From positions 1 through 34,958 of the forward strand of contig DUBU01000028.1 of the NCBI GenBank assembly GCA_012960155.1: a DNA stretch of 34,958 nucleotides, in the 5' to 3' direction. How positions within the stretch are numbered: the stretch's first letter is position 1; every line of letters begins with the position of its first letter. The notes below the pieces were generated by a model, which was not told the origin of the DNA, searched no databases, and saw only the letters and a list, made by a program, of their open reading frames with translations. Positions 1-17,869 of this stretch are shown here, piece by piece. Source of the DNA: Micavibrio sp. (GTDB lineage Bacteria; Pseudomonadota; Alphaproteobacteria; Micavibrionales; Micavibrionaceae). The position numbers were made by a program, and so were the translations under genes.

Positions 1-1070
1 TCTATTTCCTGGAGATGAATCCCCGCCTGCAGGTGGAGCATCCTGTTACAGAGATGATCACAGGTCTTGATCTAGTGGAGTGGCAATTGCGTGTTGCTGC
101 GGGTGAAAAACTGCCGTTAGCCCAAGATGATATCGTGTGTAACGGTCATGCGTTTGAAGTTCGTCTGTATGCCGAAGACCCTGCGACGGGTTTCTTGCCA
201 CAGACAGGTAAGGTAGAGCATTTCTCTGCGCCTGAAGATGTGCGTTTAGATACGGCTGTCGAGGCAGGGGACGCCGTTACAATTCACTATGACCCTATGG
301 TTGCCAAGCTGATTGTTCATGGCAAAGACCGTGATGAAGCGCTGGAGAAGATGCGTGTAGCGCTGGCGGGTACTGTCATAGGTGGTTTGAATACCAATCA
401 GGAGTTTCTATCTCATGTCTTTGTGCAGAAGGACTTTGCCAAGGGGGATGTGGATACGGGCTTTATCGCGCGTTTTGAAAGCGAGCTTATTCCTGAAGAT
501 TACGGTCAGCCGCAGGCCGATGATCTGGGTGTGGCTGTGATGCTGGATTCAGGGCGTAAGGTTATGTGTCCTGACCCATGGAATGCCGCAGATAACTGGC
601 GCGCCCATGGGGATGCTATCCGCCGTATGAGTTTTTCTGCGCGTGGCCAGCGTTATGATATTACGCTGAATTACGGTCTGGGTAGCATTGATATGGCCTT
701 TGAAGGTAAGAGCTACAAGATCAATGATAGTTTGCTGGATGCGGCTGTGTTTGCCTCCCATAAGGGGAATTATACCATTAACCGCGGCGGGCGTGTTGTG
801 ACACTGTCCCGCTTTGATCACAGTGAAGGCGCTGGGGAGGCCGGAGCAGGGCGTATTACAACGCCGATGCCAGGCAAGATCATCGATGTCATGGTGCAGC
901 TTGGTGATAAGGTTGAAAAAGACCAGCCGCTTCTGATCATGGAAGCCATGAAGATGGAGATGACCATTCGTGCAGGCTGTGACGGTGTTATTGATGAATT
1001 ACCCGTATCCGCCAATGATCAGGTTGCCGATGGCGCATTGCTGGTCTCTATTTCCGAAGACGTGGCCTAA
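1..1070 (+). CDS. mccA: Methylcrotonyl-CoA carboxylase biotin-containing (alpha) subunit, 3' part
   Basis: The gene is cut by the left edge; the open frame already reads YFLEMNPRLQVEHPVTE, the late biotin-carboxylase motif, at base 3. It continues through the carboxylase C-terminal domain and a linker with PDPWNAADNWR, typical of acyl-CoA carboxylase alpha chains. It ends in a biotin carrier domain whose EAMKMEM motif places the biotinylated lysine at the codon 951-953. The family carboxylates an acyl-CoA with bicarbonate and ATP in the cytoplasm. Substrate assignment to 3-methylcrotonyl-CoA (leucine degradation, also called liuD) rests on hydroxymethylglutaryl-CoA lyase and isovaleryl-CoA dehydrogenase lying downstream. 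Propionyl- or geranyl-CoA carboxylase alpha remain possible. The stop overlaps the convergent neighbour by 4 bases. The carboxyltransferase partner is not in the window. Confidence 0.85.
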   Translation, partial: YFLEMNPRLQVEHPVTEMITGLDLVEWQLRVAAGEKLPLAQDDIVCNGHAFEVRLYAEDPATGFLPQTGKVEHFSAPEDVRLDTAVEAGDAVTIHYDPMVAKLIVHGKDRDEALEKMRVALAGTVIGGLNTNQEFLSHVFVQKDFAKGDVDTGFIARFESELIPEDYGQPQADDLGVAVMLDSGRKVMCPDPWNAADNWRAHGDAIRRMSFSARGQRYDITLNYGLGSIDMAFEGKSYKINDSLLDAAVFASHKGNYTINRGGRVVTLSRFDHSEGAGEAGAGRITTPMPGKIIDVMVQLGDKVEKDQPLLIMEAMKMEMTIRAGCDGVIDELPVSANDQVADGALLVSISEDVA

Positions 1071-2647: not shown

Positions 2648-3541
2648 ATGTCATTACCAAAGAAAATCAAGATATACGAAGTCGGACCGCGTGATGGTCT
2701 ACAGAACGAAAAGCAGATCGTACCTACGGATGTTAAGGTCGGGCTGATTGATCGCTTATCTAAGACAGGGCTGACCGCTATCGAGGCAACATCGTTTGTG
2801 TCCCCTAAATGGGTGCCGCAGATGGGGGATGCGTCTGATGTGATGGCCAAGATCGCGCGTCAGGATGGCATATCCTACCCTGTGCTTGTCCCGAATGAGA
2901 AGGGGATGGAAGCGGCGATTGCTGCGGGCGTGACCGAGATTGCTGTTTTTGCGGCAGCATCAGAGATGTTTAGCCAAAAGAATATCAATTGCTCCATTGA
3001 GGAGAGTATCGCGCGTTTTCGTCCTGTTGTGAAAATGGCCGAGGACTCAAATATCGCCGTGCGCGGTTATGTATCTTGTGTAGCGGGCTGCCCGTATCAA
3101 GGCGATGTTCGTTCGGAGCGTGTGGCGGAAGTGGCTGCGGAACTATACGAAATGGGCTGCTATGAAATTTCGCTGGGGGATACGATTGGTGTCGGCACGC
3201 CGCCGATTATTGGTCAGGTTATCTATGACACGTTAGAGCTTGTGCCTGTGAACGCTTTGGCACTGCACTGCCATGATACTTACGGTCTTGCGCTGGGGAA
3301 TATCTATCAGGGGCTGACGATGGGTGTGAGTGTTATTGATAGTGCCGTTGCAGGTCTGGGCGGCTGTCCTTATGCCAAGGGTGCCAGTGGTAATGTGGCG
3401 ACCGAAGACGTGCTGTATTTCATGGATCGTTTGGGCATTGAGACGGGCGTTGATATGGACGGTATTCTGGATGCGGCGCGTTATATCACAGACGCGCTGG
3501 GGCGCACACCATCATCCAAGACGGCATGCGCACTCGCATAA
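2648..3541 (+). CDS. mvaB: Hydroxymethylglutaryl-CoA lyase
   Basis: The enzyme cleaves 3-hydroxy-3-methylglutaryl-CoA to acetyl-CoA and acetoacetate, the last step of leucine catabolism (also called liuE). The 297 residues match the family's usual length. Visible landmarks are [10 protein letters not shown] (residues 12-21, metal-binding Asp16), [11 protein letters not shown] (49-59) and [10 protein letters not shown] with the two metal-ligand histidines 207 and 209. The active-site loop [12 protein letters not shown] carries catalytic Cys240. These are the signatures of the HMG-CoA lyase branch of the DRE-TIM metallolyases. It lies 39 bases after the Sel1-like pair, with a possible operator in the gap. 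It fits the same pathway as the carboxylase upstream and the isovaleryl-CoA dehydrogenase downstream. Confidence 0.93.
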
Positions 3542-5034: not shown

Positions 5035-5056
5035 ATTGCACTGCACTGTTAGTGAC

Positions 5057-5085
5057 TTTACCGCGCGGCGTTCAGGCTATAGAAT
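5057..5085 (+). promoter_or_regulatory. Candidate promoter of the isovaleryl-CoA dehydrogenase gene
   Basis: TTTACC (5057-5062), 17 bases, then TAGAAT (5080-5085) lies between the terminator and the ribosome site. The -10 box is good and the -35 box weak. Confidence 0.35.
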
Positions 5086-5122
5086 TCCTGCAAATAAAAT
5101 AACAAACTGCAGGGAGGAAATA

Positions 5123-6349
5123 ATGCAGACAGCAATGAAAGACGATGCTGCCAACAGCAATAACAGAAAGCAGGCACAGCCCATGGTATCTTACCCCACA
5201 CTGAAATTCGGACACCCAGAAGAGATTGATATGCTGCGCGAGGCTGTCAGTCAGTTTGCGCAAGCCGAGATTGCGCCGCGTGCCGAAGAGATCGACCATA
5301 AGAACGAATTCCCGCAAGATCTGTGGGAGAAGTTTGGTGAGATGGGCTTGCTGGGTATTACGGCATCCGAAGAATATGGCGGTGCGGATATGGGGTATCT
5401 GGCGCATGTTGTGGCGATGGAAGAAATCTCCCGCGCGTCTGCATCTGTCGGCCTTAGCTACGGCGCGCATTCCAATCTATGTGTGAACCAGATCAACCGT
5501 AACGGAAACGCCGAGCAGAAAGCAAAATACCTGCCGAAGCTGATTAGTGGTGAACACGCAGGCGCGCTGGCAATGTCAGAGCCGGGCAGTGGTTCTGATG
5601 TTGTGTCTATGAAGCTGAGCGCCAAGAAGGTTGATGGCGGCTATGTGCTGAACGGTAACAAGATGTGGATTACAAACGGTCCCGAGGCCAGCACGCTGGT
5701 TGTTTACGCCAAGACTGACCCCGAGGCAGGTCCGCGCGGTATTACGGCCTTTATCATTGAAAAGGGTATGAAAGGTTTCAGCACAGCGCAGAAGCTGGAT
5801 AAGCTTGGCATGCGCGGCTCTAACACATGTGAGCTTGTGTTTGACGGCTGTGAAGTGCCTGAAGAAAACGTACTGGGCCAAGTCGGGCGCGGCGTGAACG
5901 TTCTGATGAGTGGTCTTGATTACGAGCGCGTGGTTCTATCTGGCGGTCCTCTGGGGATCATGCAGGCCTGTATGGATGTGGTTGTGCCTTACGTGCATGA
6001 GCGCAAGCAGTTCGGCCAAGCGATTGGTGAATTCGAGCTGATGCAGGGCAAGATTGCCGATATGTACACGAAGCTATCCAGCCAGCGCGCCTATGTTTAT
6101 GCGGTGGCACAAGCCTGTGATCGCGGCGAAACAGCCCGTAAGGATGCGGCAGGCTGTATCCTGATGAGTGCGGAAGCCGCCGTGAATGTAGCAGAAGAAG
6201 CCATTCAAACCCTCGGCGGTAACGGTTACATCAACGAATACCCGACAGGCCGCCTATGGCGCGATGCCAAGCTCTACACCATTGGGGCAGGGACGTCGGA
6301 AATTCGTAGAATGCTGATTGGCCGTGAGTTGTTTGAAGAGACGAAGTAA
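5123..6349 (+). CDS. ivd: Isovaleryl-CoA dehydrogenase
   Basis: An FAD acyl-CoA dehydrogenase oxidising isovaleryl-CoA to 3-methylcrotonyl-CoA, the substrate of the carboxylase at the left edge (also called liuA). It passes electrons to ETF. The catalytic base sits in [13 protein letters not shown] (Glu268); a glutamate in this early position is diagnostic of isovaleryl-CoA dehydrogenases rather than other family members. Also present are [10 protein letters not shown] and [10 protein letters not shown] (FAD/substrate) and the C-terminal [28 protein letters not shown]. The start at 5123 has an excellent AGGGAGGAAA site; a longer in-frame extension to 5036 runs into the terminator and lacks a ribosome site. 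The N-terminus is about 20 residues longer than usual and Asn/Gln/Lys-rich. The AbiC-like gene starts one base after its stop. Confidence 0.94.
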
Positions 6350-6350
6350 T

Positions 6351-7208
6351 ATGCCAAGTAAGAAACACGAAGCTGATAAAGAGGAAATTAGTGGTTGGAT
6401 ACTATTTTTCTTTATTTCATGTGTTGTATTTTCTTTTTGGTGTTTAAATATAGGATTGTTATCAGATTTAGATCCTGACGTGCGTGGAACGTATGGTGAT
6501 ATGTTCGGTCCTGTTAATGCTATGTTTTCAGGGTTGGCTTTTGCAGGCGTTATAATTGCTATTTTGCTGCAATCTAGAGAGCTAAAGGCACAACAACGAG
6601 AGTTGCGACTAACCACCGAGGCTTTGAGAGAGCAACGAGAGGAGTTTGTTGAACAGAATAAAACTTTAAAGCAGCAAAGGTTTGAAAATACTTTTTTTCA
6701 AATGTTAAGCATGCTTAACGAAATTACTGAGAACATTTCAGTGGCTTCATCGAATGGTAGGCTTACCTTGACTTCGCGCTCTGCGTTTAAACGGCTCTTA
6801 TGGGTTCATAAGGATATTTCAGACGGGATGATTAAGGCTGGATCAGATCCTGCAAGTTTTGATGTGTCTTTGGATGCGTATCAAAAGCTATATTTAGATT
6901 ATCAGGGTGAGCTAGCACATTATTTTAGAGTTTTACTCGGTGTGGTAAAGTTTGTTGATCGCAGTAAGATAGGAAACTTAAAACAGAAAAAAATATATAT
7001 CGATATGCTGATTGATCAGCTGTCCAATCAAGAACAAAGGTTGTTATTTTATCACGGTCTTACAGCTTATGGGGCAGGCGAGTATAAGGCCCTGATAGAA
7101 AAGTATCAAATGTTGAGGTCGGTTCCACTAAAAGATGGAACGAGATTTTCTGAAGCTGCAAGAAGATATAAGGTAAGCGCGTTTGGTAAAAAGTATCCAG
7201 ACGACTAA
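6351..7208 (+). CDS. Putative phage abortive-infection protein (putAbiC-like)
   Basis: The 285 residues follow the layout of the putAbiC family. Two membrane segments come first (GWILFFFISCVVFSFWCLNI, and MFSGLAFAGVIIAILLQ preceded by GTYGDMFGPVNA). A charged coiled coil follows (LKAQQRELRLTTEALREQREEF). Next is the QRFENTFFQMLSMLNEI core, and a C-terminal NQEQRLLFYHGL. Family members are annotated as membrane proteins that may kill or arrest phage-infected cells; the mechanism is not established and I infer nothing more. The gene is markedly AT-rich: two lines I counted (6361-6480) are 30% G+C, against 55% in 5701-5760 of the preceding gene. It starts one base after the upstream stop and overlaps slyX by 4 bases at stop codons. 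Transfer into the cluster is likely. Confidence 0.75.
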   Translation: MPSKKHEADKEEISGWILFFFISCVVFSFWCLNIGLLSDLDPDVRGTYGDMFGPVNAMFSGLAFAGVIIAILLQSRELKAQQRELRLTTEALREQREEFVEQNKTLKQQRFENTFFQMLSMLNEITENISVASSNGRLTLTSRSAFKRLLWVHKDISDGMIKAGSDPASFDVSLDAYQKLYLDYQGELAHYFRVLLGVVKFVDRSKIGNLKQKKIYIDMLIDQLSNQEQRLLFYHGLTAYGAGEYKALIEKYQMLRSVPLKDGTRFSEAARRYKVSAFGKKYPDD

Positions 7209-8835: not shown

Positions 8836-10581
8836 CTATGGTTTGGGAGCCTGCCCTTTAAAGCCATATTGCTTATCTTCGGGGATTTCAGACTCGGTGA
8901 TTGTCTGGTTTTCCAAACGCAAATGGTGCGTATGGTATTTCTGCACGTAAGAGTTATGCGCAATACTTAGGACAGTTGTACTACTTGGCAGGGTTTCCAG
9001 CAATGTCTCGTAGACATCTTCCCCTGTTTCTTCGTCCAGACCAGATGTCATCTCATCGGCCACCAAGACGTCAGGCTTATGCAGCAATGCTTGCGCAATG
9101 CCCAGTTTAAGCTTTTGTCCGCCTGACAGGCGCGTGCCGTATGTGATGTCACTGCCGCGCAGCTTCTGGCCTTCCATCGTGACGGTCAGATATTGCGCCA
9201 GTTCTTTGGATTGTTTCCATGCACGTAGCAGGGTAACGGATTTTGTGTATGGCGATACTGCCACGCCAGCCAGTGCAAAGACAGGTTTTGTGACGGCTTT
9301 GCCGAGGGCGTATCCGGTTTTGACAATCCCTTTGCCAACGGCGAAGGCGAATTTCGCGCTAAGCCAGCCTGCTTTGGCTGTGTATTTCGCCACGTTGTAA
9401 GAGGCGCTGTACGCAAAACCTGCGACCTTGTTTCTTTCGCTTAGCTCTGCATTGCGTTCAAGGTTACTTTCGTAAGCTGGTTTGATGGCTTTGTGATATA
9501 GCGCAGCTGACGGTTTCGCGACGGCATATTTAAATGTCAGCGAAAGAGGCTTTGCCACAAATGTGTTGAACTGACGCCCTAGCCAGAAGCTGTTTTCTTG
9601 CTTCAGGCGCATTTCGTAGCCTTCTGCGAGTTCGTTTGCGATGCTTTTGGCTTGTTCGTAGTTGATCACAGGGACGCGGTGTTTATCGTCCGTATCCGTA
9701 TTTTCGATATAGGCGATCAGGCGGCTGTTCAGACTGCGCTTGAATGACAGCGCCAGAGATTCTTTTTGACGCTCTGATAGTGGCCATAGGAAACCGTTGG
9801 TGCGGCGGGCGCGGTCTTTCAAAGTGCCTGACATGGCCAGTACGACGTTAGACGCTAGCTCGTTATCTACTTCGTGCAGGAAGTCAGCGTAGAATTGTCG
9901 CGCGTAATCTTCGGGCATATATTTGCCCAGAATGTTTGCCGCGCGGTCAATAAACTCAGCCTTTTGTTCGGCCGGAATATACTGCGTACCGCTGAAGTTT
10001 TCCTGAATATGCGCTGTCGCCACCATCAGCAGGCTGTATTTAAACGCTTTTAACTGCATGGCAGATGTTGCGTCTTTCAGCATTTCTGCAGATTTCTTTT
10101 TGAGCGTCTTTTCGATCTCTTCCAGCATAATCTCGGTTTGCTGTCCCGGAAGGTGCTGGATAAGTTGATCCAGACCGACTTTTTTCAGAACCGTTACGAT
10201 TTCTTCGTCTGAATGTGCGTAGTCACGCTCTGGCGTCATATTCATGATGCCGCGTAAATCCGTGTCGGGGAAGTAGGGGCTTTGTGGCAAGCCCATGATG
10301 CTGAGGCCATTACGTTTTGTAATCACGCCTGAACCCGGGTCCCACAAATCCAGGATGGCATTTGTTGTAATCGTTTTGCCTGATCCTGACATGCCTGTCA
10401 GAACGTAGCGTTTGCCGCGTTCCAGTGTCAGGTTAACGCTTTTGATCAGCGCGCGACCATTTACACCCGGCAATTTCACGGTGAGATCTCTCAGGATGAT
10501 TGTGGCATCCGCGTCTTCGTGTTCGCCGACAAGGATTAATGGCGTTCTGATTTTTGTGTCTTTAGCTTTTTGTACAGTCAT
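8836..10581 (-). CDS. ABC transporter ATPase, SbmA/ABCD type, with about 300-residue insertion
   Basis: The 581-residue protein has all nucleotide-binding motifs. They are Walker A GMSGSGKT (residues 63-70), Q-loop LPQSPYFPD (from 98), signature LSGGQ (485-489), Walker B VLVADE, D-loop SGLDEETG and H-loop SIAHN. The N-terminal half (IILRDLTVKLP, ILDLWDPGSG) matches ATPase domains of the SbmA/BacA/YddA and ABCD group, which normally sit fused behind the permease. Here the ATPase is a separate chain. Q-loop and signature are about 385 residues apart; 60-90 is usual. The extra segment (about 150-480) is helical, Lys/Ala-rich and partly repetitive (KAGWLSAKFAFAVGKG, KTGYALGKAVTKP). It lies 18 bases after the permease gene. 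The substrate is unknown. Confidence 0.88.
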   Translation of the reverse strand: MTVQKAKDTKIRTPLILVGEHEDADATIILRDLTVKLPGVNGRALIKSVNLTLERGKRYVLTGMSGSGKTITTNAILDLWDPGSGVITKRNGLSIMGLPQSPYFPDTDLRGIMNMTPERDYAHSDEEIVTVLKKVGLDQLIQHLPGQQTEIMLEEIEKTLKKKSAEMLKDATSAMQLKAFKYSLLMVATAHIQENFSGTQYIPAEQKAEFIDRAANILGKYMPEDYARQFYADFLHEVDNELASNVVLAMSGTLKDRARRTNGFLWPLSERQKESLALSFKRSLNSRLIAYIENTDTDDKHRVPVINYEQAKSIANELAEGYEMRLKQENSFWLGRQFNTFVAKPLSLTFKYAVAKPSAALYHKAIKPAYESNLERNAELSERNKVAGFAYSASYNVAKYTAKAGWLSAKFAFAVGKGIVKTGYALGKAVTKPVFALAGVAVSPYTKSVTLLRAWKQSKELAQYLTVTMEGQKLRGSDITYGTRLSGGQKLKLGIAQALLHKPDVLVADEMTSGLDEETGEDVYETLLETLPSSTTVLSIAHNSYVQKYHTHHLRLENQTITESEIPEDKQYGFKGQAPKP

Positions 10582-10599: not shown

Positions 10600-12618
10600 T
10601 TATGCCGGTTGTGGTGCCGGTGGTTTATCGCCGTTGCCGCCGTTACCACCTTGGTCGCCATTGCCACCGTTACCGTCATCTTTATTCTCTAGCAGCTGCT
10701 TGCTGAGCTGTCGTTTTTCCTGTTCCAGATAGAACGCTGCGTCGGAAGCTACATCCTGCTGATACATACGAACGCCTGTCGCCATCCATGCAGAAATCTG
10801 CTCGAAACGGTTAACGAAGAAGCTCATGGAGCTGTGAACACGGTTAAATGTGTAGTTCAGCGCTGCGATTGTACCCATTGTTGATGCGCCCAAAGGCATT
10901 GTTGTAAGGGCGATGATCAGATACGGGAACGGAATAGACGCGTTACCGAATGTTGCGTCAACAACCTGCACCTTGATGCTTGTGCTGATCTCGCGAACAG
11001 TGTTGCGCAGGGCAGGACGAATACGCTTCTGCATTTCTTGCAGCTCCAGTTCTTCGCTGCCTGTCAGGGCAATCTGGTTCGCTTGGTTATCAATGTTATC
11101 TGTCGCTTTACGCAGATTGGCTTCAACACGCTGCTTGTTACGGAAGATTTCAGGATATTTGTAACCTGCCAATGTTGTCAGGCCGAGCAGAACGGCGGAG
11201 AATGCCGCAGTTGACCATAGATAACCCCATTCCATACCCATGAAAGACCCCATTTCCACGAGGTCAGGGCCGAATACGATGCCAGTGTTGATGGCAGTCG
11301 CGGCACCTGTTAGCAGTGAAACCGTGGCTGTCGAGAATTTGTCAGGGTCTTCCTGCAAACGCTGCCCGGGGTTATCAACCGCGCCGTTAAACAGGTTTTT
11401 CATGCGCAGATAGGCTTTGTCTTTCATGGTTTTGCAAGCCATGTAGCCTGTCTGCCAACCACGCCAGCGCAGCACCATTTGCTGTGTCGCTTTATAGCTG
11501 GCAACTGCAAAAATCATGAATTTCATAACGATGGTTGTGAAGTCCAGATTGTTCCAGGCACCACCCAGTGTGTTGCGCGTATTCTCCGAGAACATATTGT
11601 GCCAGTTCATAAAGGACAGGCGCTTTGCTGTTTCCGGATCGTTCGGGTCGTAGTTCGGGTTAGTGATTGCGTTCCAGCCGGCATTGCTGAAGTAATCCGC
11701 TGTTGCGTTAAAGTTGTCTGTCAGGAAGCTCGGGCTGAACACGTGTTTACCGACATTTGTCATGTTGGCCAGAAACTCGCGGTATGTGAATTCATGGATA
11801 CGCTCACGAATTTCGCGGCTTGTTTCATCGGCCTCAAGAATGCTGCCAAGTTCATTATTGAACGCTTGTAGCTGCTCCATCAGGGCAGGGTTATCTTGCA
11901 TGGCATTCTGGAATGACGGGAACTCGCGGAACAAGTCTTCCATGGTGGGGTTGCGCTCAAGAACCTCGCGCAGTCCGTCATTGGCGCTGATCACGTCTTG
12001 GAATTCGGGCATGCGCAGGATTTGGCTGACGTCAGGGAATTCCTGCATGGCTTTATCAAGCAGATCATTATTTTCCAATAGCTGCTGAAGCGCGGGGTAG
12101 TTTTGAATAATATCGCTGATTGCGTCAGGGCGCATTTCGCTGGTGTGGTTGTATAGATGCGTGACTGTGTTTGTCAGCATACTGAACCAGTCGCGGAAGT
12201 CCGCCATCATTTCAACTGATTCTTTGTTCATCCAGATGGCCATAAACAGCAAGCTGCCTGCCATGGCTCTTTCTTTCCATGAGCCTTCAACAGGGTATCT
12301 GGATGCGGTGTAGAATACGGCGCGTGTTGTACTGCGCGGTGTCGCAAGCGCACTTTCTTCCATAAGCTTTTTGCGTTTTTCAGGCGACAGTACATGCGAA
12401 TCATGGCGGCCGAAAATTTGCGTAGCCTGTAAGAGCGGTCTAACTACACGCGGTGAATTCTCGAAGCCTTTGGCTTGTCCATTAAAAATTTTGCCGATTT
12501 CCTTGATCGGATTTTTACGAGGAAACGGCCTTTCGTAGGCAAAGCCTTCATCGATAGCTGAATCAATCGAAAAGAAGTAGCCGACGCCCTTTTTGGCGTC
12601 CGATTTATCTTGCGACAT
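10600..12618 (-). CDS. ABC transporter permease, SbmA/BacA/ABCD type, with periplasmic repeat domain
   Basis: A 672-residue inner-membrane protein. Family motifs are RWRGWQT (384-390), DNPGQRLQED (415-424) and the late HSSMSFFVNRFEQISAWMATGVRM, all matching the SbmA/BacA/YddA and peroxisomal ABCD membrane domain. Hydrophobic segments lie near 117-130, 360-376, 432-450, 464-485 and 555-580. Between the first two is a loop of about 220 residues holding about eight ten-residue units (PEFQDVISAN, PTMEDLFREF, PSFQNAMQDN, PALMEQLQAF). The C-terminus is a low-complexity Gly/Asn/Asp tail ending in a Pro-rich end. The chain lacks the ATPase domain, supplied by the next gene. SbmA relatives import peptides and ABCD relatives move fatty acyl groups; the cargo here is unknown. 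Confidence 0.87.
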   Translation of the reverse strand: MSQDKSDAKKGVGYFFSIDSAIDEGFAYERPFPRKNPIKEIGKIFNGQAKGFENSPRVVRPLLQATQIFGRHDSHVLSPEKRKKLMEESALATPRSTTRAVFYTASRYPVEGSWKERAMAGSLLFMAIWMNKESVEMMADFRDWFSMLTNTVTHLYNHTSEMRPDAISDIIQNYPALQQLLENNDLLDKAMQEFPDVSQILRMPEFQDVISANDGLREVLERNPTMEDLFREFPSFQNAMQDNPALMEQLQAFNNELGSILEADETSREIRERIHEFTYREFLANMTNVGKHVFSPSFLTDNFNATADYFSNAGWNAITNPNYDPNDPETAKRLSFMNWHNMFSENTRNTLGGAWNNLDFTTIVMKFMIFAVASYKATQQMVLRWRGWQTGYMACKTMKDKAYLRMKNLFNGAVDNPGQRLQEDPDKFSTATVSLLTGAATAINTGIVFGPDLVEMGSFMGMEWGYLWSTAAFSAVLLGLTTLAGYKYPEIFRNKQRVEANLRKATDNIDNQANQIALTGSEELELQEMQKRIRPALRNTVREISTSIKVQVVDATFGNASIPFPYLIIALTTMPLGASTMGTIAALNYTFNRVHSSMSFFVNRFEQISAWMATGVRMYQQDVASDAAFYLEQEKRQLSKQLLENKDDGNGGNGDQGGNGGNGDKPPAPQPA
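11860..12099 (-). repeat. Decapeptide repeats inside the ABC permease
   Basis: Codons for residues about 174-253 encode roughly eight consecutive units of 9-11 residues. The pattern is Pro or Asp, x, hydrophobic, x, x, hydrophobic, x, x, x, Asn or Phe. The repeat is at protein level; the DNA copies are diverged. Confidence 0.7.
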
Positions 12619-14359: not shown

Positions 14360-17300
14360 ATGGCGCAAGCAGCATTAAAACTCAAAGATGTTTCTCTAGA
14401 TGACAAGTTCGAGCTAGAAGACGGTCAGGCCTTTATGTCAGGCCTTCAAGCGTTAGCGCGTATTCCGATTGTGCAGCGTCGCCGTGATATGGCAAAGGGT
14501 TTGAATACAGGCGGTTTTATCTCGGGTTACCGTGGCTCTCCGCTCGGTGCGCTTGATCGTGAACTTGCCCGCGCCAATAAATATTATGGCGATCTGGATG
14601 TTAAATTCCTGCCTGGTGTGAACGAAGATTTGGCGGCGACAGCCGTTTGGGGGACACAGCAAGTTGGCTTGCTGCCCGGCGCGCAAAAAGAGGGTGTGTT
14701 CGGTATCTGGTATGGTAAAGCGCCGGGTGTTGACCGCAGTCTTGATGTTATCCGTCATGCGAGTGCCAATGGTACAGCGCCCAAGGGTGGTGTGCTTGCG
14801 CTTGTTGGGGATGATCACGGCGCGAAGTCTTCTACGCTGTCTTGTCAGAGTGATCATGTGCTGTATGCAGCGCAGATTCCGACTCTTTATCCAGCCAGTC
14901 TTCTTGAGTTTGTAGAGTATGGTCTACTCGGTATCGAGATGAGCCGTTATTCCGGCTGCTGGACGGCGATGAAGGTGACCAGTGATACGGTGGAGACATC
15001 TGGGACAATTGATCTGTCGCGCGAGAACCGTGAGATCCTGATTCCAACAGATGACGAATACACAATGCCAACGGGCGGTTTGAATATCCGTATGGGTGAT
15101 ACGCCGCGCGATATTGACTGGCGCTTGCAGAACTACAAGCTGTTCGCGTGCCATGCTTTTGCCCGTAAGAACAAGATTGACCGCGTCGTGATGGATAGTC
15201 CGAAAGCACGTTTCGGCATTGTGACTTCGGGTAAGTCATATGGTGATGTGCGTCAGGCTCTGATTGAGCTGGGCATTACCGAAGAGGTAGCCAAGGAAAT
15301 CGGCCTGCGTGTCTATAAAGTCGGCATGATCTGGCCGATCGAGCCTCAGGGCTTGAAGGCTGCTGTTGAAGGTCTTGAAGAAGTTCTGGTCGTAGAAGAG
15401 AAGCGCGAGTTTATCGAATACCAGCTGAAGCAATATGTTTACAACTGGGATAAGCGTCCGAAGGTTATTGTCGGTAAATATGATGAAAACCAGCAGCATT
15501 TGTTGCCGCTTGAAAACGATCATTCTGTCGGTAAGGTTACTCATGTGATCGCGCAGCGCCTCAACCGTTTTTATCACAATGAACAGGTTGAAAACGCGCT
15601 TAAATATTACGAAGATTTCGCCAAGCGTGAGAAAGGCTATCTGCCGCCATCATTGCGCAAGCCTTACTACTGTTCAGGTTGTCCGCATAATACATCGACC
15701 AAAGTGCCTGATGGCAGTTTTGCAATGGTGGGGATTGGCTGTCACTATATGGTGCAGTGGATGGACCGTAACTCTGCGCTTTGTACGCATATGGGCGGCG
15801 AGGGCATTCCGTTTGTCGGCAGTGCGCCGTTCAGCCATACGAAGCATATCTTTGCCAATCTAGGTGATGGCACGTATTTCCACTCAGGCACGCTGGCCAT
15901 TCGTCAGGCGGTCGCCGCGAAGATCAATATTACCTATAAGATTTTGTATAATGATGCGGTCGCCATGACAGGCGGTCAGCATGTGGATGGCGAGATGCCT
16001 GTTTACCGCGTGGCGCAGCAATGTATGGCTGAAGGCGTGGCTAAGTGCTGGCTCGTCAGTGAGCGCCCCGAGATTTACAAAGATCGTTTCGGTCTGCCTG
16101 ACGCAGTGCCTGTTCTGCATCGCAAGCATATGGATAACATCCAGAAAGAAGCGCGCGAAACCGAAGGCACGACAATCATTATCTATGACCAAACTTGTGC
16201 CGCTGAAAAACGTCGCCGTCGAAAACGCGGCACTTATCCTGATCCTGCCAAGCGCATCTTTATTAATAAGGCCGTTTGTGAGGGCTGTGGTGATTGTAGT
16301 GTGCAGTCTAACTGTATGGCTGTGCAGCCTGTTGAGACTGAATATGGTCGCAAGCGCAAGATTAACCAGTCCATGTGTAACAAGGACTATTCCTGTCTGA
16401 CGGGTTTCTGTCCGTCATTTGTGACCGTTCTGGGCGGTAAGCCGAAGAAGACAAAAGCCGAGAATGTCGATGATGCCTTTGCCAATCTGCCTGACATCGA
16501 GGTGAGCGAGATACCGCATGATGCCTATAACATTATGGTGACGGGTATCGGCGGTACGGGCGTTCTGACTGTGGGGGCGCTGCTTGGTATGGCGGCGCAT
16601 TTGGAAGACAAGCATTGCCGCATTCTGGATCAGACGGGTCTGGCACAAAAGGGTGGTGAGGTTCTGTCTCACGTTCGTTTGGCGCATAACCGCGATGAAA
16701 TGCGCACGGGTCACATTAATACGGGCGGCGCTGATTTGCTGCTGGCTTGTGATATCGTGGCCGCTGTCGGTAAGACGGCGCATGAGACACTGAATCCTGA
16801 GCGTACCAAGGCTGTGCTTAACACGAATAACACGCCCGTTGCGGCTTTCGTTCTGAATAACAGCACCGATTTCCATGGTGAGCAGATTAATGACACGATC
16901 CTGAAAGCGACAATTAAGGAGCATCAGCATTTAGTGCCTGCGACAGGTTATGCGCAAACACTTATGGGTGACGAGATTGCAACAAACGTCTTTATGCTGG
17001 GCTATGCATGGCAGAAGGGCTTGGTACCGTTGCATAAGGAATCCATTATGCGCGCGATCGAGCTGAACGGCGTGGCGATTGATGCCAATAAGCGAGCGTT
17101 TAATTTTGGCCGATTGGCCGCACATGATCCTGAGATCGTTGAAAAGATGGCTGAGTCTGTGCGCGGAGAAACAGAGGAAGAGGGTATCGCCGAAACTCTG
17201 GAAGAGCGCATTGCCAAGCGTGTCGAGTTTTTGGGCAAGTACCAAGACGAAGCATACGGCCAGCGTTACAAGCATATGGTTGAGCGTGTTCAGGCGGCGG

Positions 17301-17869
17301 AGCAGAAGACCGTTGCGAACAGCACGGCACTGGTTGAGGCTGTGGCGCGTTTTTACCACAAAGTCATGGCGTATAAGGATGAGTACGAAGTTGCGCGTCT
17401 GTTCAGTGACCCTGCGTTCAAGCAGGAGCTGGAAGCAACCTTTGACGGTGATTACAAGCTGAAGTTCAATTTGGCACCGCCTATCATGGAGCAGAATGAC
17501 CCTGCAACAGGTCGTCCGAAAAAGCGCGAGTTTGGTGCGTGGATGCTGCCTGCTTTCGGGGTGCTTGCCAAGTTCAAAGGCCTGCGCGGTACACCGTTTG
17601 ATATCTTCGGGTATCATAAGGAGCGCAAAGCGGAGCGTGCGCTGATCAAGCAGTATGAAGAGGATCTGGAATTCATTCTGGCCAATCTGAAGCCTGATAA
17701 CCTTGATCTGGCAACAGAGCTTATGAGCTTGCCCGACATGATCCGCGGTTATGGTCCTGTGAAAGAGCGTAATATGCAACAAGCGGCTATTCGCCGTGAG
17801 CAGCTTTTGTCACGCTTTAAAGACCCTAAAGCTAACGGCACGAAAGATAACAAAAAAGAAGCTGCCTAG
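14360..17869 (+). CDS. Indolepyruvate ferredoxin oxidoreductase, fused alpha-beta subunits
   Basis: The 1169 residues match the long fused form common in Proteobacteria. The enzyme oxidatively decarboxylates aryl (and possibly branched) 2-oxoacids to acyl-CoA using thiamine diphosphate and ferredoxin. In order come the N-terminal pyrimidine-binding domain (SGYRGSPLGALD, 54-65), the diphosphate domain (CSGCPHNTST; LGDGTYFHSG; ILYNDAVAMTGGQ), ferredoxin-like cysteines CEGCGDC (about 640) with CNKDYSC..FC, and the gamma-type domain GIGGTGVLTVGALLG (about 728). A C-terminal extension of about 200 residues closes it. It is a single gene with a divergent neighbour. Its last codons form one arm of the terminator hairpin. 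It probably feeds aromatic amino-acid breakdown after transamination; the aminotransferase at 21183 could supply substrates. Confidence 0.92.
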   Translation: MAQAALKLKDVSLDDKFELEDGQAFMSGLQALARIPIVQRRRDMAKGLNTGGFISGYRGSPLGALDRELARANKYYGDLDVKFLPGVNEDLAATAVWGTQQVGLLPGAQKEGVFGIWYGKAPGVDRSLDVIRHASANGTAPKGGVLALVGDDHGAKSSTLSCQSDHVLYAAQIPTLYPASLLEFVEYGLLGIEMSRYSGCWTAMKVTSDTVETSGTIDLSRENREILIPTDDEYTMPTGGLNIRMGDTPRDIDWRLQNYKLFACHAFARKNKIDRVVMDSPKARFGIVTSGKSYGDVRQALIELGITEEVAKEIGLRVYKVGMIWPIEPQGLKAAVEGLEEVLVVEEKREFIEYQLKQYVYNWDKRPKVIVGKYDENQQHLLPLENDHSVGKVTHVIAQRLNRFYHNEQVENALKYYEDFAKREKGYLPPSLRKPYYCSGCPHNTSTKVPDGSFAMVGIGCHYMVQWMDRNSALCTHMGGEGIPFVGSAPFSHTKHIFANLGDGTYFHSGTLAIRQAVAAKINITYKILYNDAVAMTGGQHVDGEMPVYRVAQQCMAEGVAKCWLVSERPEIYKDRFGLPDAVPVLHRKHMDNIQKEARETEGTTIIIYDQTCAAEKRRRRKRGTYPDPAKRIFINKAVCEGCGDCSVQSNCMAVQPVETEYGRKRKINQSMCNKDYSCLTGFCPSFVTVLGGKPKKTKAENVDDAFANLPDIEVSEIPHDAYNIMVTGIGGTGVLTVGALLGMAAHLEDKHCRILDQTGLAQKGGEVLSHVRLAHNRDEMRTGHINTGGADLLLACDIVAAVGKTAHETLNPERTKAVLNTNNTPVAAFVLNNSTDFHGEQINDTILKATIKEHQHLVPATGYAQTLMGDEIATNVFMLGYAWQKGLVPLHKESIMRAIELNGVAIDANKRAFNFGRLAAHDPEIVEKMAESVRGETEEEGIAETLEERIAKRVEFLGKYQDEAYGQRYKHMVERVQAAEQKTVANSTALVEAVARFYHKVMAYKDEYEVARLFSDPAFKQELEATFDGDYKLKFNLAPPIMEQNDPATGRPKKREFGAWMLPAFGVLAKFKGLRGTPFDIFGYHKERKAERALIKQYEEDLEFILANLKPDNLDLATELMSLPDMIRGYGPVKERNMQQAAIRREQLLSRFKDPKANGTKDNKKEAA

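Follow-up and report, generated by a model that had tools for sequence, protein, structure and literature searches.

The window, that is the whole stretch of 34,958 nucleotides analysed here from a Micavibrio sp. contig, contains on the minus strand (8836..10581) a gene encoding an ABC ATPase of 581 residues (P0001), matched by PF00005 with an E-value of 4.6e-16 and a score of 60.1 bits against a cut-off of 25, the match being broken into two stretches. Eighteen nucleotides upstream, on the same strand (10600..12618), lies the gene of the partner permease (P0002, 672 residues), which is of the SbmA/BacA or ABC_membrane_2 type and scores above the Pfam cut-offs of both PF06472 (73.4 bits, cut-off 24.4) and PF05992 (51.3 bits, cut-off 24). 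In the PDB this permease is matched best by 6tqe (E 3.9e-16), presumably Rv1819c, the mycobacterial BacA. In the ATPase, Walker A starts at residue 63, the glutamine of the Q-loop is Q100 and LSGG starts at residue 485, followed by Walker B (D509-E510), the D-loop (L515-D516) and the H-loop (H542). The N-terminal half of the nucleotide-binding domain (residues 1-147; 10141..10581, minus strand), delimited by alignment and by the predicted model, holds Walker A, the Q-loop and the helices up to 'PGQ', and the C-terminal half (8836..9129, minus strand), delimited by the family alignment and the alignment with ABCD1, holds LSGGQ, Walker B, the D-loop and the H-loop. All the catalytic motifs are invariant in the ten ATPases, one from each genome carrying the insert described below, of a ten-row alignment, and the initial annotation, which had read this gene as an ABC ATPase with a full set of catalytic motifs, is borne out on this point.

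The distance between these motifs is far from usual, as had also been claimed. Q100 and LSGG are 385 residues apart and Walker A and LSGG 422, against 93-108 residues between the latter two motifs in compact relatives (n=5, those in which both motif patterns were matched). Moreover, the cassettes of the same genome are mostly continuous: there are 31 PF00005 matches, 23 of which are full and continuous, two are the halves of the P0001 gene, two are the halves of a 955-residue frame that, by eye, reads as UvrA, and four are partial and below the cut-off. A continuous cassette with the usual spacing is thus a feature absent from P0001, which is nevertheless a single cassette, with one Walker A and one LSGG found by the motif search. 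Some of the related ATPases (L042, L043, L044, L051 and L093) bear CPxC cysteine pairs near their extreme C-terminus, possibly metal-binding, that P0001 does not have.

From the Q-loop to LSGGQ the protein has gained roughly 315-330 residues, in good agreement with the figure of about 300 first proposed, and they are placed directly before LSGGQ. In fact, residues 9-146 align to residues 455-594 of ABCD1 (7rr9) and residues 23-144 to 6tqe up to its residue 541, and the signature motif of ABCD1 presumably lies about a dozen residues beyond the aligned position 594; the extra residues should therefore run from the end of 'PGQQ' (145-148) to LSGGQ. Judged by these alignments, the insert stands not midway along the helical subdomain but where type IV transporters have the X-loop. 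This loop is a short element on the permease-facing side of the motor, which it couples to the permease. The earlier suggestion of an insertion in the helical subdomain near the permease interface is thus kept as regards the permease-facing side, by the signature motif, and corrected as regards the subdomain. The predicted core of P0001 aligns to ABCD1 7shm with a Z of 19.1 (rmsd 2.5, 213 residues within 14-565), a score that ties with those of many other ABC domains, and on this model the cassette would close normally around the insert.

The insert is made of three parts. The first is a conserved, all-helical inserted domain (residues about 148-335; 9577..10140, minus strand), recognized from the alignment, the predicted model and the relatives; the second is a lineage-variable linker (residues about 336-449; 9235..9576, minus strand), with a pLDDT of 37-63 by block; the third is a closing helix leading back to LSGGQ (residues about 450-484; 9130..9234, minus strand), whose blocks 451-480 have a pLDDT of 77-84. 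When the whole ATPase was modelled (mean pLDDT 75.4, with the ten-row alignment as input), the predicted helices of the insert spanned residues 147-167, 174-195, 204-218, 224-241, 244-251, 254-261 and 270-293 and onwards. Thirteen of the 18 ten-residue blocks of residues 151-330 have a pLDDT of 82-92 and the rest 63-78, in contrast with the blocks of residues 351-450, at 37-58, where the linker is predicted with low confidence as long helices. The shortest version of the insert, that of L045, was folded alone with a mean pLDDT of 80.8 and a pTM of 0.70, giving seven predicted helices of 11-42 residues each. The idea of a compact extra domain with conserved homologues, which are found in ten genomes of the order, is therefore upheld. 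An ordered insert is predicted for most of residues 151-330, but not for about 351-450, where low confidence and variability among lineages indicate that a good part of the segment as first described may be disordered.

The composition of the insert had been described as Lys/Ala-rich and partly repetitive, with no membrane segment. The first property holds for residues 385-447 (9 K and 14 A of 63, with zero acidic residues) but not for the whole insert, with 9% K and 13% A. Repetition is weak: in tests of 200 shuffles each, the best self-alignment score was reached 6 times with the insert taken whole, 13 times with residues 345-450 and 170 times with the conserved part. No membrane segment was seen, the highest 19-residue Kyte-Doolittle mean being 1.38, at 434-452. 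The net charge of the linker region ranges from +5 to +11 in P0001, L042, L043 and L047 and from -3 to +3 in the other six carriers. Within the conserved domain, the alignment reveals an acidic loop, NxDTDDxxR...N (residues 294-307; 9661..9702, minus strand), whose NxDTDD is kept in eight of the ten rows and missing from L049 and L050. An EF-hand-like, cation-binding role of this loop was considered but is not put forward, given its loss in these two members and a match to EF-hand_8 in one member only (0.074).

As for possible relatives of the insert, a Pfam scan of the ten members gave no family in more than one of them (best E 0.0044), a PDB sequence-profile search gave nothing convincing (best E 0.15), and Foldseek searches of the L045 insert model against the PDB and against BFVD gave zero matches at E<=0.001 in each. 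With VIA-align, the best match of the same model was the designed helical repeat 5cwb (Z 6.3 over 72 residues), followed by TetR-type regulators and designed helical proteins. The lack of a match to known structures does not establish that the fold is new.

The ATPase gene adjoins the permease gene in nine of the ten carriers and is fused to it in the tenth, G083, where the permease and the insert-bearing ATPase form one chain of 899 residues (L050:4032-6731, minus strand). The permease has a peculiarity of its own, an enlarged TM1-TM2 segment of 223 residues (11548..12216, minus strand) that is ubiquilin/STI1-like according to Pfam and stands out by length comparison. This segment measures 191-223 residues in eight of the ten pairs and 170 in G022, against about 45, by eye, in the compact L051; the enlarged loop is missing in G082 (a permease of 448 residues), in G083 (within the 899-residue fusion) and in G065 (a permease of 441 residues), and the permease of G027 has an enlarged segment of different sequence. 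PF23195 (UBQLN1) matches it in seven of nine members at E<=1 (best 7.5e-9), exceeding the cut-off of 27 in three of the nine (L047 35.6, L048 28.8, L096 30.9) and reaching 26.9 in the window; the segments of L044, L045 and L046 gave no UBQLN1 match at 0.01. Acidic residues outnumber the basic ones in nine of nine members. By homology with other type IV permeases, the loop would be periplasmic. The hypothesis that the ATPase insert and the enlarged loop are one co-evolved unit was discarded, since G082, G083 and G065 have an insert without the enlarged loop.

A profile search with the insert found carriers in ten of the 142 genomes of the order, a result that rules out both an insert unique to the source genome, a possibility that would have told against the initial annotation, and, together with open frames and low dN/dS, a sequencing or assembly artefact. 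In a class-wide draw, one of 385 genomes matches the profile, and it is the source genome itself; in a phylum-wide draw the matches are three of 398, namely the source genome, G825 and G777. The last two were counted as chance: in G825 (L149) the two long frames listed have low-complexity repeats and no ABC motif was seen in them, and in G777 the match covers 58 positions on a frame of 129 residues.

The history of the insert was followed on a tree of 39 permeases, built by a quick method with a midpoint root and excluding ATPase sequences except in fused chains. All 41 PF06472 places were covered; the tree left out the duplicate L106, L092 and L118 had no permease match, and the five rows without a fetched partner ATPase were scored as NA. 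The state 'none' was measured where both motif patterns were matched and otherwise taken from protein length and absence from the insert-profile matches. The ten long-insert rows, two rows with shorter inserts and G022, whose ATPase falls outside the fetched stretch, form one clade with an SH-aLRT of 100, within which the order of the basal branches is weak (support 48 and 63). The shorter inserts, with 215 residues from Walker A to LSGG in G065 and 206 in G027, are tied to the long one by place in the tree only, and both genomes are flagged as long branches of unsure placement. The long-insert rows alone need three changes on this tree, with G022 and the two mid-size rows taken as other states. 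The tree weakly suggests that the enlarged permease loop came later than the ATPase insert.

Selection on these segments was estimated with a Nei-Gojobori script written for the purpose on the closest pair of carriers, L045 and L046: dN/dS is 0.073 in the insert, 0.077 in the N core, 0.045 in the C core and 0.036 in the enlarged permease segment, values that are rough, since dS in the insert is 1.5, near saturation. Over the ten members, mean pairwise identity is 25% for the insert domain and 47% and 49% for the core halves. The insert, therefore, is constrained but evolves faster than the core. The motor motifs are intact, and the insert is conserved, is under purifying selection and has a predicted fold.

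The pair lies among metabolic genes, all on the plus strand and conserved as neighbours: a biotin carboxylase subunit, similar to methylcrotonyl-CoA carboxylase (MCC) alpha and cut by the edge of the window (15..1070), an HMG-CoA-lyase-like gene (2648..3541), an acyl-CoA dehydrogenase (5036..6349) and a gene of the indolepyruvate ferredoxin oxidoreductase family (14360..17869; NF009589, 1588 bits). From their sequences, these neighbours would fit leucine and 2-oxoacid breakdown. The oxidoreductase is found at <=5 kb from the pair in eight of the ten carriers (window, G001, G002, G024, G080, G076, G082, G083), and homologues of the other three within about 9 kb in seven (the same list without G083). 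None of the four occurs on the stretches seen of G023 and G079, whose contigs run on for about 4 kb and 0.2 kb past the pair, the only acyl-CoA dehydrogenase match near the G023 pair being 27% identical, nor on the stretches taken from G026, G047, G065 and G027, relatives that lack the long insert. Somewhere in the genome, the oxidoreductase is present in ten of ten carriers and in 49 of the 142 genomes, 39 of these 49 being without the long insert. Some of the neighbourhood may go back to an older synteny, because the compact, insert-free pair of G026 (G026:C1:1156691-1166146) lies near homologues of three other genes of the window, its aminotransferase, thiolase and citrate synthase.

Other genes were seen close to the pair. 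In G076 the oxidoreductase beside it (G076:C16:18322-21800) falls into three matches, two containing internal stops, either a broken gene or sequencing errors. The window also encodes near the pair, at 6318-7208 on the plus strand, a putAbiC domain protein (PF16872, 71 bits), a putative phage abortive-infection protein. A SAM methyltransferase gene, recognized by Pfam, stands beside the pair at L045:7189-8004 and L049:7378-8193, and ORFs of similar length and start occupy the same place at L046:6892-7707 and L050:7205-8044.

From a functional perspective, the best reading, with a probability of roughly 0.42, is that the pair forms a split importer taking up amino-acid-rich solutes (peptides, for example), with an additional module of the ATPase at the interface between motor and permease. 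Two permease and two ATPase chains would form a split transporter of the SbmA/BacA/Rv1819c (BclA) kind, in which the ATPase would be an ordinary ABC motor with the all-helical domain replacing the short X-loop near the coupling helices. The pump would import amino-acid-rich solutes, for instance short peptides, and feed the adjacent amino-acid breakdown pathway; the inserted domain might take over the coupling contacts of the X-loop and gate the motor, or else receive the cargo or a cytosolic partner. The partnership with the permease (by adjacency and one natural fusion), the single clade in the permease tree and the gene neighbourhood are computed results, from which we infer the position relative to the membrane, the number of subunits, the direction of import, the cargo and the role of the insert. 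The likeliest task would be the import of peptides or similar solutes, given the amino-acid context and the apparent presence of a predator in the family. In fact, the carrier G080, of the family of the window, appears to be the predator Micavibrio aeruginosavorus ARL-13 and was taken as such; as it has the pump beside amino-acid breakdown genes, the pump is a concrete candidate for tests in a cultured strain. It would not be the sole candidate for peptide uptake there, since G080 encodes two SBP_bac_5 proteins (C1:726206-727426 and 772638-773837), in contrast with the ARL-13 paper, according to which no known peptide transporter is encoded. More generally, SBP_bac_5 proteins were found in 12 of 12 genomes tested, so that peptides could be taken up by routes other than this pump. 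One report ascribes to the mycobacterial BacA (Rv1819c) a large polar cavity and the uptake of diverse hydrophilic compounds, including a peptide (PMC10960864).

The same report, describing transport both ways by the mycobacterial BacA, makes the direction of import uncertain (PMC10960864). A pump working as an exporter of a peptide, a lipid or a waste product of amino-acid breakdown is the alternative that survives best, although it is rather unlikely: it would agree with the type IV exporter fold, with the movement of cobalamin in both directions by the mycobacterial BacA, as stated in that report (PMC10960864), and with the wording 'import (and possibly export)' used for the peptides handled by SbmA/BacA and BclA in another (PMC12003926), but the families closest by sequence, SbmA/BacA and Rv1819c, are described in these sources mainly as importers (PMC12003926, PMC10960864).

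A slightly less probable alternative, unlikely in its turn, concerns the insert itself, which could serve for the docking of a chaperone or an enzyme of the cytosol, for instance one from the 2-oxoacid and leucine pathway encoded nearby, without taking part in motor coupling. The neighbourhood conserved in seven to eight of ten carriers, the NxDTDD loop conserved in eight of ten and the cationic linker of P0001, L042, L043 and L047 are in line with such a role; against it, the insert is retained in G023 and G079, where the stretches seen show no such neighbour (one side of G079 being nearly unseen), and the linker of the other six carriers lacks the charge. It is more improbable still that the insert is a tolerated expansion with no specific function. 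Its size among carriers, from 220 to 337 residues in total, the linker pLDDT of 37-58, an identity below that of the core and the ATPases L052 and L091, which get by with shorter inserts, would all be expected from a tolerated expansion, but a dN/dS as low as that of the core, a predicted compact fold and invariant columns inside the domain argue for a function.

A bolder version of the import hypothesis, which is decidedly doubtful, sees a feeding pump of a predator lineage, an ABC importer of larger fragments of prey polypeptides, in which each face of the membrane would bear a chaperone-like helical module: the STI1/ubiquilin-like periplasmic loop would capture unstructured polypeptide, and the insert at the X-loop would receive stretches of it or gate ATP hydrolysis. 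Lastly, the idea that P0001 is an ATPase of the DNA-repair or ribosome type (UvrA or ABC-F like) and not a transporter subunit, prompted by the UvrA-like nature of the other clearly split cassette of the genome and by EttA and VmlR among the fold matches, is hardly credible for a protein with one cassette only and a permease partner, the G083 fusion largely refuting it.

Returning to the split importer, the comparison with known systems begins with Rv1819c (6tqe) and BclA, which share with it a sequence-related permease core and ATPase and the exporter-type fold. In these proteins permease and ATPase are in one chain, of 647 residues in 6tqe, whereas here they are split except in G083; furthermore, the present pair is set apart by its additions, roughly 315-330 residues in the ATPase and the enlarged TM1-TM2 segment in the permease. 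ABCD1, of the peroxisomal ABCD transporters, is similar in the ATPase core (7shm, 213 residues, Z 19.1) and has a related permease; it is not known to have a comparable insert before LSGGQ, consistently with the alignments made here. SbmA/BacA (PF05992) resembles P0002, which exceeds the Pfam cut-off (51.3 against 24 bits), but SbmA is described as a secondary transporter that draws on the proton gradient (PMC13316013). Here, on the contrary, a cognate ATPase is encoded, adjoining in nine of ten carriers and fused in one.

Among non-transporter ABC ATPases, UvrA, SMC/Rad50 and the ABC-F proteins, with their arm, bear large segments before the signature motif, UvrA and ABC-F as tandem cassettes and SMC/Rad50 with a long coiled coil. 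P0001 differs from UvrA and ABC-F in being a single cassette with a permease partner, and the SMC/Rad50 insert is a long antiparallel coiled coil; for comparison, the L045 insert alone is predicted as seven helices of 11-42 residues, and the low-confidence linker of P0001 as long helices. Among the matches listed by the PDB profile and fold searches, none significant linked the insert to any of the three, by sequence or by structure. Ubiquilin and STI1 domains are of the chaperone type and belong to the eukaryotic cytosol, and here the match sits instead in the TM1-TM2 loop, which would be periplasmic by homology. Neither the PDB sequence and fold searches nor the literature searches turned up an ATPase in which a conserved domain stands at the X-loop, whether its permease has an STI1-like loop or not, and this evidence, although limited, agrees with the initial annotation, which knew of no described transporter of such form. 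The transporter family is already known, and the ATPase with a domain at the X-loop is a new form within it. Since the X-loop couples motor and permease, a whole domain at this place offers a natural case for testing how extensively the coupling contact can be remodelled.
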